Assembly: GCA_030154385.1 (NCBI GenBank)
Contig: JASKJZ010000138.1
Location: 1-6,800, forward strand
Length of the DNA: 6,800 nt
From: Clostridiales bacterium
Lineage (GTDB): Bacteria > Bacillota_A > Clostridia > Lachnospirales > Lachnospiraceae
Direction: 5' to 3'
Positions within the stretch are counted from its first letter, which is position 1, and the number at the start of each line of letters is the position of its first letter. Of this stretch, positions 2,044 to 6,800 are shown piece after piece. Under the pieces are notes generated by a model. It saw nothing but the letters and a program-made list of their open reading frames with translations, made no database searches and was not told the DNA's origin. The position numbers were made by a program, and so were the translations under genes.

Positions 2044-2616
2044 ATGAAAACAAAAGATAACATTATTTATGAATCTCTAAAACTTTTTTCCATCTTAGGC
2101 TTCGAGGCAGTTTCTACTCGTATGATTGCAAAGGCCGTTCATGGGTCGGATGCTCTTATTTACAAGCACTTTAAAAACAAACAGGAAATTCTTGATACAA
2201 TTGTTGCAATCTGTACCGAACGCTTTCTTAGTAAGCGCCAAGCAATCGATTTTAGTCATATCTGTTGGGAGGATGCAGAGAAGATTTGTATGGACATGTT
2301 TGAATTTCAAACAGAGGATGAGTGGATTGTTCTATTTCGAAGACTCCTTATTTTGGAACAATTTAAGAATGAAAAGATGGCTCAGCTTTATCGAAAATTT
2401 TTCATCGATTCCATCTTAGATGATCTTGCTTTACTTTTTGAAAAGCTGATGGTAAATGAGTATTTAAAACCAGGTAATCCAAAAATCTATGCGATGGAAC
2501 TATATGCACCTTTTTTTATGTACCACACCCTGAATCAAGAGAAGGAACTGTTAAGGAAAGAGTTAAAAATTCACGTTTCTTACTTTGAAAAAAATTATAG
2601 AAATGATAGGAGATAA
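2044..2616 (+). CDS. TetR/AcrR-family transcriptional repressor
   Basis: This 190-residue protein has the usual length and layout of a one-component TetR-type repressor, a cytoplasmic DNA-binding dimer released by a small ligand. The N-terminal helix-turn-helix spans about residues 8-50. It comprises a first helix (IIYESLKLFSILGFEAVS), STRMIAKAV as helix 2, and a recognition helix in SDALIYKHF (35-43), followed by the family-typical KNKQEIL (44-50). Residues 55-190 form the variable helical ligand/dimer domain, which gives no hint of ligand. The gene is first in a two-gene operon with the PEBP-like protein, whose ribosome binding site lies in its last codons. Two matching inverted repeats in its promoter point to autoregulation. 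The divergent sugar importer could also be a target, but neither repeat overlaps that promoter. Confidence 0.92.
   Translation: MKTKDNIIYESLKLFSILGFEAVSTRMIAKAVHGSDALIYKHFKNKQEILDTIVAICTERFLSKRQAIDFSHICWEDAEKICMDMFEFQTEDEWIVLFRRLLILEQFKNEKMAQLYRKFFIDSILDDLALLFEKLMVNEYLKPGNPKIYAMELYAPFFMYHTLNQEKELLRKELKIHVSYFEKNYRNDRR
2606..2611 (+). promoter_or_regulatory. Ribosome binding site of the PEBP gene, embedded in the TetR-type gene
   Basis: The AGGAGA-like sequence before ATG 2622 is formed by the final AGG AGA (Arg-Arg) codons of the repressor gene, just before its TAA. Ribosomes finishing the first gene are therefore placed at the second start, which suggests translational coupling. Confidence 0.65.
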
Positions 2617-2621
2617 AAAGA

Positions 2622-3116
2622 ATGACTACCACCTTTGGTCAAAAAAACAAACTAAACGTAAGCAGTCCATCCTTTCAAGATAATGGATGGATTCCAAAAA
2701 AACACACAGATTTTGGAGAAGATGCCTCTCCCGCTTTCCATCTCGAAGGTCTTTCTAAGGATGCAGTTTCCATTGCGATTGTAATGGACGATTTGGATAT
2801 TCCTTTTCTTGATGCATACAATCATTGGATTATATGGAATATCCCTAGTATGACACAAATACCTGAGAATATATCCTATGGAGCAATTGTAGAAAAGTTA
2901 GGCAATGCAAAACAAGGCATCGGATATGGGAAAAATCGATATCGTGGACCAAAGCAACCCATCTTTATACGAAAGATGCATCGCTATCAGTTTGACTTTT
3001 ATGTACTGGATTGTTTTCTTGCTTTAAAAAGTACAGCCAAAAAAAGAGAGCTTCTTTTGGCTGTAGATGGACATATTGTGCAAACTGGAAGAATCACTGG
3101 TCAATATAAACGGTAG
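2622..3116 (+). CDS. PEBP family protein (YbhB/YbcL, Raf kinase inhibitor-like)
   Basis: This 164-residue, probably cytoplasmic protein has no signal peptide or membrane helix. Its match to the phosphatidylethanolamine-binding/YbhB fold rests on SSPSFQDNGWIP (14-25), the loop G-EDASPAF (32-39), MDDLDIP (55-61) in place of the usual DPDAP, HWIIWNIP (68-75), YGKNRYRGPKQP (102-113) and HRYQFDFYVLD (120-130). The family forms a small anion-binding pocket around the Asp and His motifs. Bacterial members have no firmly established role, and kinase inhibition should not be assumed. It is second in the TetR operon, starting 5 bp after the repressor stop, so it is probably expressed only when that repressor is released. 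Its last 23 bp overlap the 3' end of the opposing permease gene. Confidence 0.9.
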   Translation: MTTTFGQKNKLNVSSPSFQDNGWIPKKHTDFGEDASPAFHLEGLSKDAVSIAIVMDDLDIPFLDAYNHWIIWNIPSMTQIPENISYGAIVEKLGNAKQGIGYGKNRYRGPKQPIFIRKMHRYQFDFYVLDCFLALKSTAKKRELLLAVDGHIVQTGRITGQYKR

Positions 3117-3849
3117 TATTTTGTATGGAGCTAACCGCATTATCAATTGCTTTTACTGGACAGGATGAAATGGTCTCCAACAGGCGTTCCATTTCGACTT
3201 CTTTGACTTCCTTTACCCGTGCTTTTTTCCCATCCATTTCGAATAGTTCTGGATATTTTTTGGTACAGACGGTACATCCCATACAAGCAGTTCGATTAAT
3301 GGTAACACCTATTTTCTGTTCTTCTTTTTCTCGAGGCAAGTCATCATCCTTTACAATGAGACCTGCCAGAAAGGAAAACAGCAAAATTGATAGTATGGTC
3401 AACCCCCAACGCACAAGCATAAATTTTAGACCAAGAAACTTTGCTTCATTAATTAACATTGGTATTTTAACAACTGCCCAAGAGCTTATTATAATTATGA
3501 GATTTCGGATCGTCGCTCCTTTTTTATGCAGCATTGTACAGATTGGAAAAGCTGCATAAATGGGACCTGCTGATATACTGCCCAGCAAAAAAGAAAAGAA
3601 TACACCCTTAAGCTTGGCTTCCTTACCCAAGGTTCTAAGAATCATTTCCTTTGGTACAAAAGAATCTAATAAAGCGGTAAGAATAAAAATAACTGGCATA
3701 ATCATCAGCATTTCTTTTATGTAATAGCCACTATTATAAATTGCCTGTATGCCGATTTTAGGATATGAAAAGAATATTACAGCATAGATTCCTAGTATGC
3801 ACTCCAAAAAAATATTATGTTTCATCCACAATACCATTCGATTATTCAT
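3094..3849 (-). CDS. Half-permease (ArsP/COG0701-like) fused to a [4Fe-4S] ferredoxin domain
   Basis: This 251-residue membrane protein has hydrophobic segments at about 13-29, 45-65, 83-106, 114-130 and 148-166. The region around GSISAGPIYAAFPIC (90-104) resembles the conserved core of the COG0701/PF03773 permease family (which includes ArsP). A charged linker (167-180) leads to a single-cluster ferredoxin-like domain (about 181-236) with C189-x2-C192-x2-C195 and C230-P, so all four ligands of a [4Fe-4S] cluster are present. Usual COG0701 members hold two halves in one chain of about 300 residues or more. Here the halves are separate genes and this one carries the extra redox domain. It starts at the ATGA overlap with the upstream half, behind a G-rich GGGGGTGG stretch. 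Met5 or Met9 are less likely starts. The substrate is unknown. A role in redox-gated or redox-driven transport is inference only. Confidence 0.85.
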   Translation of the reverse strand: MNNRMVLWMKHNIFLECILGIYAVIFFSYPKIGIQAIYNSGYYIKEMLMIMPVIFILTALLDSFVPKEMILRTLGKEAKLKGVFFSFLLGSISAGPIYAAFPICTMLHKKGATIRNLIIIISSWAVVKIPMLINEAKFLGLKFMLVRWGLTILSILLFSFLAGLIVKDDDLPREKEEQKIGVTINRTACMGCTVCTKKYPELFEMDGKKARVKEVKEVEMERLLETISSCPVKAIDNAVSSIQNTTVYIDQ

Positions 3850-4328
3850 AATACCACCCCCATCACAAATGCAATCACAAGTGCAAAAACAAAACTTAGT
3901 AAATTCCTCGTAATCGCAAATTTTCGCCCAAATTCTCTTTTTTCCAGCGGAAACGTCACGACTCCAACCATCGTTAACGTTGTTAAAAATGCAACGGAAG
4001 GCATAATTCCAACACCCGCGCTTCGCAGCGTTCCAATCAGCGGGAATGCAATAAATGCCGGAATCAAGGTAATGGTTCCGAATCCCGCTGCTGCAATCAT
4101 TGCAAGTGTTTCGTTCTGTTTACCAATAAAGCTTGCAATGGTTGCTGGAGGCAGGATTGCAAGTAGCAACCCGATAGCAAAAATCACTGCAAAAATGGAG
4201 GCCGCCATTCCTTTCCCCATAAAAAATGCTTTTTTTAGTGCGTCTTTTGTTCTTCTTTTATCCTTTTGAAAGAAAAACAATAATAAACCTCCTGTTAAAA
4301 TCCAAACGGCTAGTGTAAAAATATCCAT
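3846..4328 (-). CDS. Half-permease (ArsP/COG0701-like), first subunit
   Basis: This 160-residue hydrophobic protein has a short N-terminal helix (3-20), a basic loop (QKDKRRTKDALKK) and further helices at about 40-60, 74-96, 108-126 and 143-159. The motif TITLIPAFIAFPLIG (85-99) corresponds to the conserved core of the COG0701/PF03773 family. It aligns with the same segment in the next gene, so the two are probably the N- and C-half equivalents of one permease acting as a heterodimer. It starts at ATG 4328 behind AAGGAGTG (4333-4340). Its TGA overlaps the next ATG by 4 bp, implying tightly linked translation. The Crp/Fnr-type gene is divergent, 125 bp away. It is too short to be a full family member, but nothing suggests decay: both halves are intact and have their own starts. 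Confidence 0.82.
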   Translation of the reverse strand: MDIFTLAVWILTGGLLLFFFQKDKRRTKDALKKAFFMGKGMAASIFAVIFAIGLLLAILPPATIASFIGKQNETLAMIAAAGFGTITLIPAFIAFPLIGTLRSAGVGIMPSVAFLTTLTMVGVVTFPLEKREFGRKFAITRNLLSFVFALVIAFVMGVVL

Positions 4329-4453
4329 AGAATCACTCCTTTTTATTTCTTATCATAATCTTATAAAAAAAAGCTTCGATGGAATAGACACCTATGTTTC
4401 TTTTTGATATCATAATACATAATACTTACCTTTTAGACTAGGAGGACACAAAG
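4329..4453. promoter_or_regulatory. Divergent promoter region of the permease pair and Crp/Fnr-type regulator
   Basis: This 125-bp AT-rich gap is shared by the two outward-facing units. On the minus side, -10-like TATAAG (4365-4360) and TATGAT (4357-4352) occur, but neither has a credible -35 at 17 bp, which would fit an activator-dependent promoter. Imperfect dyads ATAG-N4-CTAT (4384-4395) and TGATATCA (4405-4412) are possible sites for the adjacent regulator. No terminator is present. Confidence 0.5.
4385..4413 (+). promoter_or_regulatory. Candidate promoter of the Crp/Fnr-type gene
   Basis: TAGACA (4385-4390), a 17-bp spacer and TATCAT (4408-4413) with TG in the extended -10 position (4405-4406) predict a start near 4420 and a 34-base leader. 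The -10 box overlaps the palindrome TGATATCA, so binding there could give autoregulation. Confidence 0.5.
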
Positions 4454-5080
4454 ATGGCAGAATTATTTGATGGAGTGGATAAAACTCTTTTGCAACAAAT
4501 AATCTTCAATTCTCAAAAACATTCAAAGGGTGCTACGGTTTACTCGCAAGGAGACTCTTGTTTAACCCTTGATATTGTTCTGTCTGGAAGTCTGATTGCC
4601 TACAGCCTATCTCCAAATGGGAGTGAAACGATTGTATTTGAATTTAAAAAGGGCAGCATAATCGGGGCAAACCTTTTATTTGGTCACGCAAATCATTATC
4701 CAATGAATATTTACTGTACCGCAAATTGCGAACTTCAACGAATAAGAAAACGTGATGTGGAACGATTGTTGCATGATTATCACTTTACAATGCATTTCAT
4801 CAAAAGCATCTCTGCCAACTCACAGGGAATGAATCAAAAAATCTCGATGTATACGCAACGGTCTTTACGTGCAAATATCTTACAATATTTGCATTTATTA
4901 TCGATCGAGCAAAAATCAAAAACCATCCTGCTTCCTGTCAGTAAAAAGCAATTGGCAGACTATCTTGGGGTACAACGGCCTTCATTATTTCGAGAACTGA
5001 AGCATATGAAGGAAGAGGGACTTATTATGATTGATAACAGAATGATACAACTACTCGATTCCACATTAAAAAAACAATAG
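4454..5080 (+). CDS. Crp/Fnr-family transcriptional regulator
   Basis: This 208-residue cytoplasmic regulator has an N-terminal cyclic-nucleotide-binding-like beta-roll (about 20-105, e.g. SKGATVYSQGDSC, VLSGSLIAY, FKKGSIIGANLLF), a long dimerisation helix (about 106-150) and a C-terminal winged helix-turn-helix (about 162-202, with KKQLADYLGVQRPSLFREL). The cAMP phosphate cassette of E. coli CRP (GEL plus RS) is not conserved: the segment reads GANLLFGHANHY. There is no FNR-like N-terminal cysteine cluster either; the only cysteines are 36, 88 and 92. The signal is therefore probably something other than cAMP or an FNR-type cluster. The recognition segment has RPSLFR where CRP has RETVGR. 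AGGAGG (4440-4445) precedes ATG 4454. The gene is divergent from the iron-sulfur permease pair, its likely target. Confidence 0.92.
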   Translation: MAELFDGVDKTLLQQIIFNSQKHSKGATVYSQGDSCLTLDIVLSGSLIAYSLSPNGSETIVFEFKKGSIIGANLLFGHANHYPMNIYCTANCELQRIRKRDVERLLHDYHFTMHFIKSISANSQGMNQKISMYTQRSLRANILQYLHLLSIEQKSKTILLPVSKKQLADYLGVQRPSLFRELKHMKEEGLIMIDNRMIQLLDSTLKKQ

Positions 5081-5084
5081 TATC

Positions 5085-6800
5085 TTACCGCATATTGTCA
5101 AGAATCAGCTCAAAATTTTCCTGATATAATACATTGAACTGTATATAATCTTCTGTGATAAACTGAGGGGTCACCCAATCCCCTACCTCAGCTGTTGGAA
5201 GTGTCTTCAAATAAATCGTTCCATTCTGAAATACAAACTCGCCAATACTACCAAAGAACACCGAGGTCAAGCGTTCACCCCATTCCTCTTCGAATGTTGC
5301 AAGATCTATTTGATATCCCATATCCTCTCCATCATATGTAAGGGACAATATGCCTTCCTCGACCTGATATTTTACTTTATCATTCACTATCTTCTGCCAA
5401 TCCAACGAAGTAAAGACATGATCCGTCCAGCCGCCTTCCTCTTTTTTCTCTAATATATGTAAATCATTTATGGACAGATTTGTTCCACTAGAACTTTTAA
5501 CAATTAATGCCAACTCTTTTTCTCCATCACGATCAAAATCCTGATACTCTATTGTTGGTAGTTCTCCATAAACACCCCAATCTGTATCCAAGCGCTGAAT
5601 TTCTTTTCCCTGCATTACATATAATCCATGCAAGGTATAAGTTTCGTCTTCTAACCCATTTTCCTTTCGTCCAAATAGTCGAATATCTGCTTCTGGCAAT
5701 ACTGCGAGTAATGCAAGGGTACTGTCACTTTTTAAAAAAGCATCAAACCCTTGACTATTTTTAATGGGAAGATCTGGTAGCTCCCCTAACTCGAGACGCA
5801 AATCGTTTTCTCCATACCAGGTGAGACTACCAGTATTCTTCTGCTTTTTGCCATTAACCGAAAGCAGTGTTCCCATCCCAGCGATTATAATCAGAACAAA
5901 GAGCAGCATAAGAATTCCATTTCGTTTCCTTCTCGTGTCCATAATATTTTTCAACCTCATTTTTAATGTTTTTGTATCGTTAAAACCAGTGAGCAGATCT
6001 ACTCTTCTCATCTTTTGCTGACGAATACAAGATAGTATCACCTCTCCATATCTTTTTCTATCTGCCAGCGACATGTTCCGAACCACCTCATCGTCACATA
6101 CCATCTCCAAATTGAGATAGGACTCTTTCCGAAGCAGATAGACCGTTGGATTAAACCAGTGCACTGCATTTACAAAGACGAAGAAAAATTTATACCAAAT
6201 ATCGCCTCGTTTGAAATGTGAAAGCTCATGCTTCATAATAAAATAAAGTTCCTGATCGGTATAACAAGCGATTGGTATGACTAACTTAGGATGAATAAAT
6301 CCCAGTAATAAAGGGCTTGTTGCTCGATCGCATATCAATACCTCTAAGTTAAAAGCAAGCGACAATTCCCCCGTAACCAAAGAGAGGACAGCTTGTATAT
6401 TTTGCTCCTGCGCCCGATGGCTCCAACGCAGAATTTGTCTCTTATAATGCCAATAGCCGACCAAATGGTAGAAAATAAATATAACACAGCCAAGCATCCA
6501 AACAAAAAGCATAGCTTCTACCCATGAAATTCTTTTACTTAATTTCCTCGCTTCCACTCTATTTTCTTGCTTTCCAGCCTTTTCAGACATAGTATTCTTC
6601 GTCGTTTCCCTTTCTGCTTTCTCATAGGAATCCAAATTCGGGTCGGACAAAGAAACATTAGACGTAAGATCGACTTTCTGCGCACCATCTGTATCTTGTA
6701 AGTTGAGTTGAAATGGTGCTGCAAAAGGAGCGAAATGAATCGGTACAAGAAGCCTAATGGCGAGCATCAACCATATCCATTTGATCCATTTAGCAGAATA
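5085..6800 (-). CDS. BlaR1/MecR1-like M56 membrane metalloprotease with unusual C-terminal sensor, N-terminus off window
   Basis: The frame is open to the right edge, so the N-terminus is missing. A TTG near 6770 is internal, since KWIKW before it matches the family's early membrane region. Residues are counted from the window edge (571 visible). They show the end of an early helix (to about 22), a polar loop, a helix at 93-115, the cytoplasmic protease domain with SPLLLGFIHPKLVIP (162-176), zinc motif HELSH (191-195), LEMVCDDE (231-238) carrying the probable third ligand Glu, and a helix at about 294-313. In BlaR1 relatives ligand binding outside activates this protease to destroy a BlaI-type repressor. 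The 258-residue C-terminus lacks recognisable SxxK/KTG penicillin-binding motifs and instead contains DFDRDGEKEL (421-430), a calcium-loop-like motif. The signal is thus unlikely to be a classical beta-lactam. A BlaI-like gene may lie upstream, out of view. Confidence 0.88.
   Translation of the reverse strand, partial: YSAKWIKWIWLMLAIRLLVPIHFAPFAAPFQLNLQDTDGAQKVDLTSNVSLSDPNLDSYEKAERETTKNTMSEKAGKQENRVEARKLSKRISWVEAMLFVWMLGCVIFIFYHLVGYWHYKRQILRWSHRAQEQNIQAVLSLVTGELSLAFNLEVLICDRATSPLLLGFIHPKLVIPIACYTDQELYFIMKHELSHFKRGDIWYKFFFVFVNAVHWFNPTVYLLRKESYLNLEMVCDDEVVRNMSLADRKRYGEVILSCIRQQKMRRVDLLTGFNDTKTLKMRLKNIMDTRRKRNGILMLLFVLIIIAGMGTLLSVNGKKQKNTGSLTWYGENDLRLELGELPDLPIKNSQGFDAFLKSDSTLALLAVLPEADIRLFGRKENGLEDETYTLHGLYVMQGKEIQRLDTDWGVYGELPTIEYQDFDRDGEKELALIVKSSSGTNLSINDLHILEKKEEGGWTDHVFTSLDWQKIVNDKVKYQVEEGILSLTYDGEDMGYQIDLATFEEEWGERLTSVFFGSIGEFVFQNGTIYLKTLPTAEVGDWVTPQFITEDYIQFNVLYQENFELILDNMR

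Follow-up and report, generated by a model that had tools for sequence, protein, structure and literature searches.

A split ArsP-like permease with a fused single-[4Fe-4S] ferredoxin domain and a divergent HcpR-like regulator in Clostridia

The DNA analysed here, referred to as the window, is the whole 6.8-kb stretch at positions 1 to 6,800 of contig JASKJZ010000138.1 from a Clostridiales bacterium of the family Lachnospiraceae. At its centre, two overlapping genes on the minus strand encode the half-permeases PermN and PermFd, the latter continuing through a charged linker into a ferredoxin domain, and a regulator of the Crp/Fnr family is encoded divergently from them. Loci of relatives carry labels beginning with L, and G005 denotes one sampled genome. 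The features of this locus are as follows, with model confidence given as the predicted local distance difference test (pLDDT):

3094–3849, minus strand: PermFd, 251 amino acids, a C-terminal half-permease plus a single-[4Fe-4S] ferredoxin domain (from Pfam, conservation and fold).
3340–3849, minus strand: membrane half of PermFd, residues 1–170, one ArsP_1-type half (from a PF03773 match at 42–197 and the model helices).
3307–3354, minus strand: charged linker of PermFd, residues 166–181 (read directly; pLDDT down to 70 over residues 171–180).
3139–3306, minus strand: single-cluster ferredoxin domain of PermFd, residues 182–237, with ligands C189, C192, C195 and C230.
3538–3540, minus strand: codon of PermFd Cys104, just after the broken-helix motif SAGPIYAAFP; near-invariant in the ferredoxin-fused clade.
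3846–4328, minus strand: PermN, 160 amino acids, the partner half-permease (PF03773 at 32.3 bits, exactly the cut-off).
4358–4365, minus strand: putative −10 region of the permease operon, TATAAG / TAAGAT, imperfect in the window; its spacing comes from 47 regions.
4386–4401, between PermN and the regulator: operator palindrome AGACACCTATGTTTCT, reading AGAAACATAGGTGTCT on the minus strand.
4454–5080, plus strand: divergent Crp/Fnr-family regulator of HcpR kinship (PF00027, PF13545; best PDB match 9day).

PermFd joins a membrane half and a ferredoxin domain within one open reading frame. The preliminary description of this DNA had proposed a COG0701/ArsP-like membrane half fused to an intact single [4Fe-4S] motif, and had named beforehand a ferredoxin-family match for the tail as a test, along with retention of the cysteines in homologues. 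PF03773 was found to match the membrane half with an E-value of 1.8e-12 (47.4 bits against a cut-off of 32.3) and Fer4_13 the tail with 2.3e-9 (38.2 bits against 24.5), and all four cysteine ligands are conserved in the alignment of PermFd relatives, so these proposals are borne out. In ligands and fold, the ferredoxin domain corresponds to electron-transfer ferredoxins; what sets it apart from known single-cluster ferredoxins (Fer4_13; D. africanus Fd I and P. furiosus Fd) is its covalent attachment to a membrane half-permease. Six helices were modelled in the membrane half (residues 13–28, 30–64, 80–92, 97–109, 114–126 and 141–165). Conservation is strong in both permease halves and in the motif GSxSAGPxYAAFP. 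The agreement of Pfam, fold and conservation rules out a chance or frame artefact. Membership of the HgcAB_like, HgcB, RnfB or SO_0444 families was rejected on NCBIfam matches far below cut-off, and a two-cluster FrdX-like ferredoxin, the type found in L095, L184 and L212, was rejected for the tail on the presence of one cluster motif only. None of the NCBIfam permease models reached its cut-off for PermFd or PermN (the SO_0444 Cu/Zn exporter model scored 14.1 bits against 300). Foldseek searches of the PDB returned ferredoxins for PermFd, with none convincing for its membrane part, and nothing for PermN (model pLDDT 77.6); these failures on the membrane halves are no evidence for a new fold. 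Databases already hold such fusion proteins, annotated 'permease' or 'ferredoxin'. The C terminus of PermFd is longer than in most relatives.

PermN lies directly upstream of PermFd, which it overlaps in the sequence ATGA, and profile comparison shows its homology to the membrane half of PermFd, with an hhalign probability of 98.1 over 140 columns. Both window halves stand at or above the PF03773 cut-off and each resembles one half of the profile: PermFd covers positions 11–155 and PermN 21–133 of the 294, and the whole profile was not found in either chain. Thus, unlike in ArsP_1/COG0701 permeases, the protein is split over two genes homologous to each other, one of them with a ferredoxin. 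In tblastn searches, PermN was located directly upstream of PermFd or of a ferredoxin-less relative in 69/69 stretches (68 loci of set A plus the window) and in 20/20 loci of set B, which were drawn from the class sample. A simple open-reading-frame caller had reported an antisense frame in place of PermN in 19 of the 69 and had missed PermFd in L030, L031 and L047; the tblastn recount recovered PermN in every stretch. On the strength of homology, overlap and constant pairing, PermN and PermFd most likely form one ArsP-like permease together, presumably as a heterodimer. Mean Lys+Arg counts over the alignments were 6.5, 0.8 and 3.9 for loops 1, 2 and 4 of PermN, and 3.0, 1.5, 4.3, 2.7 and 3.2 for the N terminus, loops 1, 2 and 4, and linker of PermFd. 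This pattern suggests opposite orientations of the two halves with the ferredoxin in the cytoplasm, although loop 4, charged in both proteins, fits the scheme more poorly.

Is the fusion peculiar to this genome? In a sample of the class, 46 of 293 genomes were matched at E ≤ 1e-30, and in at least 28 of the 293 the match ran through both membrane half and ferredoxin. Far from being a one-off, the fusion is standard in one clade, and its recurring neighbours, which the preliminary description had suggested surveying, include cupin, hcp and flavodiiron genes. In a tree of the membrane half (79 of 225 rows and 158 columns, after a cull at 80% identity and with L159_1780, L035 and L063 dropped), the fused rows formed one group with an SH-like approximate likelihood-ratio (SH-aLRT) support of 99, comprising 59 fused rows and the ferredoxin-less L048, and ferredoxin-less half-pairs fell in separate groups. 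Cys104 was found to be Cys in 199 of 202 fused rows, a set from which L159_1780, a ferredoxin without a permease, is excluded; the exceptions are Ser (L164), Val (L179) and Ala (L180). The same column in 20 genuine ferredoxin-less rows contains Ala 16 times, Thr three times, Val once and Cys never. Because the fused rows make up one clade, this link between Cys104 and the ferredoxin is suggestive only, and its interpretation as independent coevolution was rejected, nine other positions also separating the groups.

The divergent regulator shows kinship with the HcpR proteins. Its second PDB match was 1o5l, which we take to be a Thermotoga protein. The best match, at 2.5e-21, was 9day, given in the available part of PMC12750200 as HcpR of P. 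gingivalis; HcpR is a regulator that responds to NO. A divergent Crp/Fnr regulator was observed in 59/69 stretches of set A and the window and in 18/20 of set B; among the remaining 12, six are cut by a contig end, in four the regulator gene is co-oriented, in L180 it is located elsewhere, and L067, which is also without the ferredoxin, has none. In a regulator tree covering 71 permease-linked regulators, four of which resemble other paralogues (L014, L016 and the second ones of L039 and L040), 67 of the 71 share one part with 7 of 18 hcp-linked ones.

The gapped palindrome between PermN and the regulator has one mismatch to AGAAACnnnnGTTTCT, with 0.01 such sites expected in the window and occurrences in 3 of 200 shuffles. 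Over 56 regions, the window included, the operator was found at 11 or more of 12 positions in 30 and at 10 or more in 41, compared with means of 0.25 and 1.3 in dinucleotide shuffles; the regulator frame is too long in L004, L014, L016, L035 and L068, whose regions may therefore be off. Five relatives (L049–L052 and L056) carry the site AGTAACnnnnGTTACT in the same place, containing the exact HcpR2 consensus GTAACnnnnGTTAC (PMC1274295), of which the window operator is the variant AGAAACATAGGTGTCT; the exact consensus also occurs in 14 of 40 hcp-centred stretches. Among the 56 regions, 47 contain the site pattern, followed at a distance of 22 bp by a TATAAT-like hexamer with a mean identity of 0.67, against 0.21–0.50 at the other 39 offsets. 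This fixed spacing puts the site centre near −41.5, the position of a class II activator. In GAAAC-type rows, a TATAAT-like hexamer on the regulator side was seen by eye about 6 bp from the site, which suggests autorepression. In a genome-wide scan of 12 genomes, 15 hits carry a GTGTCT half, 11 of them at the permease operon (10 read directly, one by sequence) and four elsewhere, so the regulator looks local.

A precedent for this arrangement exists in C. tetani, where Rodionov et al. (2005) predicted that an HcpR2 paralogue controls CTC0897-CTC0898, divergent from CTC0896 (PMC1274295, as far as its text was available). That locus resembles the window in gene order (divergent HcpR2 paralogue, permease, ferredoxin-like protein) and in regulator family, and differs in that the window operator is a variant of the HcpR2 consensus. 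It is very probably the same system as PermN-PermFd, and CTC0898 would be this fusion. Beyond this remark in the available text of PMC1274295, a literature search, in which full texts mostly went unexamined, turned up no description of the fusion. The HcpR-frdX-hcp systems of C. difficile (PMC12915319) and Desulfovibrio (PMC1274295) likewise place an iron-sulfur carrier under Crp/Fnr control, and theirs serves in defence against nitric oxide (NO): in C. difficile, according to the available part of PMC12915319, loss of hcpR or knock-down of frdX/hcp raises NO sensitivity. There, however, the carrier is encoded by a separate gene, frdX, whereas here a single cluster is fused to a half-permease and hcp usually lies elsewhere. 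The fusion, ArsP-like half and cluster motif of the preliminary description stand; what it had missed is the split-permease partner, the HcpR-type regulator with its operator, this C. tetani precedent, and the hcp and NO-reductase-type neighbours.

Those neighbours were counted in set A over 67 loci, with L067 left out. An hcp gene was found within 3 kb at 6/67 loci of set A and 2/20 of set B, with a further case in L198 and one about 3.5 kb away in L006; a cupin gene was found within 3 kb at 26/67 and 11/20, and L074 shows the cupin in the genome of L015 as well. The order PermN-PermFd-cupin-hcp occurs in L018, L021, L023, L039 and L040, of which L018 and L040 share a genome. Flavodiiron-type genes lie beside the operon or one gene from it in L025, L049–L052 and L173. 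The NCBIfam model of anaerobic nitric oxide reductase flavorubredoxin (cut-off 635 bits) scored 725 for L051 and 755 for L173, and 433 for the L025 gene, which runs off the contig end; the genes of L049, L050 and L052 were grouped with that of L051 solely through clustering. L039 and L040 encode relatives of 234 aa, which are not full flavodiiron proteins. An hcp or flavodiiron gene is thus close by in 14 of 87 loci. At L180, hcp, asrA and asrB adjoin PermN-PermFd, and AsrABC has been proposed as a nitrite reductase in the available part of PMC10949509.

Examination of the 40 hcp-centred stretches revealed FrdX-like genes in five (L184, L185, L206, L212 and L218) and a separate single-cluster ferredoxin in three (L189, L208 and L212). 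One of them (L212:3760-8406) encodes an FrdX-like protein, a cupin, Hcp, a single-cluster Fer4_13 ferredoxin and two Crp/Fnr proteins, one grouping with the permease-type regulators, with an exact HcpR2 site nearby; no permease was seen in this stretch. At L163, a cupin-ferredoxin-hcp-hcp series diverges from PermN-PermFd. Cupin and Fer4_13-type ferredoxin can therefore accompany hcp without the permease, and the small cupin is perhaps a partner of Hcp that has yet to be described. Such ferredoxins bear on the nature of the fused domain. Exposed [4Fe-4S] clusters are established targets of attack by NO, and the covalent fusion of a single cluster to a permease half, under an HcpR-like regulator and operator, would suit a sensor in which damage to the cluster by NO or O2 opens or shuts the permease with no electron transfer. 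We regard such a sensor as improbable, as the ligands and fold of the domain are those of ferredoxins that transfer electrons, and separate Fer4_13 ferredoxins adjoin hcp, where an electron donor is expected.

At L198 (2131–3491), a NapH-type membrane polyferredoxin (Fer4_5) gene overlaps the end of PermFd, with hcp, hemerythrin and cupin genes behind it, and the polyferredoxin is a possible electron-transfer partner. This overlap would also fit a permease part that transports nothing and only anchors the ferredoxin at the membrane as electron donor to Rnf, Hcp or a NapH-like partner; the strong conservation of GSxSAGPxYAAFP and of both permease halves speaks against that, and we consider it very improbable. 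In a further variant of the locus (L020, L022, L024 and L034), PermFd is followed by genes for DUF5320, a small MPRPMKWR protein, NifU_N-type and NifX-like proteins and paired MinD-like ATPases, a set that may concern an anaerobe cofactor or iron-sulfur cluster and of which DUF5320 and NifU_N were profile-tested.

What might the permease do? The kinship of the regulator, the operator, the promoter spacing and the hcp and flavodiiron neighbours in relatives lead us to favour, with a little better than even confidence, an inducible redox-coupled permease for nitrosative stress, belonging to an HcpR-like type of regulon. Judging from the conserved spacings, the regulator would bind the palindrome at 4386–4401, activate PermN-PermFd as a class II activator and repress its own gene. 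The ferredoxin domain, presumably cytoplasmic, would take electrons from the low-potential ferredoxin pool and supply a permease-linked redox reaction, which may take place in the pore, where Cys104 is a candidate specific to the clade, or in reductases acting as partners, such as Hcp and flavodiiron NO reductase. The task would be defence against NO, hydroxylamine, nitrite or the resulting damage. A bolder proposal, which we hold to be distinctly unlikely, is a redox-powered exporter, in which electron transfer through the built-in [4Fe-4S] ferredoxin, not ATP or an ion gradient, would drive or gate substrate movement; during export, electrons from the pool would reduce either a nitrosylated or N-oxide species or the Cys104 thiol that holds it in the pore.

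Several observations weigh against a role in nitrosative stress. No hcp or NO-reductase gene is present in the 6.8-kb window, and 73 of the 87 relatives are without a nearby hcp or flavodiiron gene. The six hcp loci of set A come from five genomes and have near-identical regulators, so they probably represent one event, and L050–L052 are near copies. In the 28 fusion-bearing genomes, five pairs of hcp and fusion within 4 kb were observed (in four genomes) against 0.12 expected, but G005, the genome at the centre of the sampling, accounts for two of the five, and the other 27 genomes have three pairs against about 0.08 expected. Likewise, hcp exceeded its cut-off in 25/28 fusion-bearing genomes and in 20/38 other, ferredoxin-negative genomes, taken in listing order and not at random (Fisher p 0.003), but restriction of the latter to those of at least 1.9 Mb gave 18/28 and p 0.055. 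Degenerate site patterns showed no genome-wide excess, with 47 hits against 45 in reversed controls (12 genomes) and, in a second scan, 21 against 21 per strand (10 genomes). The regulator itself also departs from HcpR. Met68, given as the heme ligand of P. gingivalis HcpR in the available part of PMC12750200, corresponds to Ser51 in the window; this column contains S 40, K 19, R 4, N 3 and H 2 times among the 71 permease-linked regulators, and K in 8 of the 18 hcp-linked ones, where Met is not among the commonest letters. The permease-linked regulators keep C36 (66/71) and H96 (58/71; Arg in the window). With Met68 replaced and C36 and H96 typical, the signal may not be NO-heme.

A further point against this role comes from the arsenic-type operons around the ferredoxin-less sister pairs, which make metalloid efflux the main rival. 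ArsP proteins are known to export trivalent organoarsenicals. On the metalloid account, which we judge unlikely, the permease would export organoarsenicals, arsenite or a similar metalloid or soft metal, the ferredoxin would maintain either the substrate or a cysteine of the pore in reduced form ahead of export, and the conserved cysteines of the regulator would let it detect the metalloid or thiol stress; the retained C36 and the Cys104 typical of the fusion clade are consistent with this. Within 3 kb of 21 ferredoxin-less loci, some of which supplied the search references so that the counts arise partly by construction, we found ArsR (5), ArsC (4), Acr3 (2), full-length ArsP (6), a separate two-cluster ferredoxin (4), thioredoxin-like (4), CcdA (2), PadR (4) and NifX-like (4) genes. 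Some fusion loci also have ars-type genes near them, the raw counts being ArsR 4, ArsP 2, Acr3 1 and ArsC 1 in the 20 of set B and ArsR 3 and ArsP 2 in the 67 of set A. Against metalloid efflux, the regulator and operator are HcpR-like and not ArsR-like, hcp and flavodiiron genes are among the neighbours, and the ars genes at L173 have an ArsR-like gene of their own and are set off by a 229-bp gap.

Some of the sister loci are of interest in themselves. In L141, L144, L148 and L159, ferredoxin-less half-pairs share arsenic-type operons with a full-length ArsP, and the last three also contain genes for a thioredoxin-like protein and, separately, a two-cluster ferredoxin, giving the impression that COG0701 permeases may more generally have ferredoxins as partners. 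The available part of PMC9751042 mentions an ars operon that includes a ferredoxin gene, and shows no permease resembling PermN-PermFd there. In Spirochaetia, a ferredoxin-less pair (L067:1758-6519) lies on one strand behind genes for a HypB-like GTPase, an 889-aa Fer4/Pyr_redox protein and HypA, a single case hinting at a nickel or hydrogenase link.

The remainder of the window holds other genes. Positions 2044–3116 on the plus strand encode a TetR-type regulator followed by a YbhB-like phosphatidylethanolamine-binding protein (PEBP), whose gene overlaps PermFd tail to tail by 23 bp (3094–3116). On the minus strand, 5085–6800 encodes a BlaR1-type M56 metallopeptidase membrane protein, open at the window end, and 3–1743 the start of a ChvE/GguA-type multiple-monosaccharide ATP-binding cassette (ABC) importer, with its binding protein above the NCBIfam cut-off and its ATP-binding part cut by the window end.

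Transporters do not usually carry a covalently attached electron-transfer domain, and this one marks a conserved family, present in about one tenth of the sampled class genomes (28/293), to which the literature that we found assigns no function. The regulator, operator, Cys104 and ferredoxin provide handles for testing how redox chemistry and transport are coupled. To our knowledge, anaerobic defence against NO is known mainly through soluble reductases such as Hcp and flavodiiron proteins; if PermN-PermFd does serve in nitrosative stress, it would add a membrane transport step to that defence.
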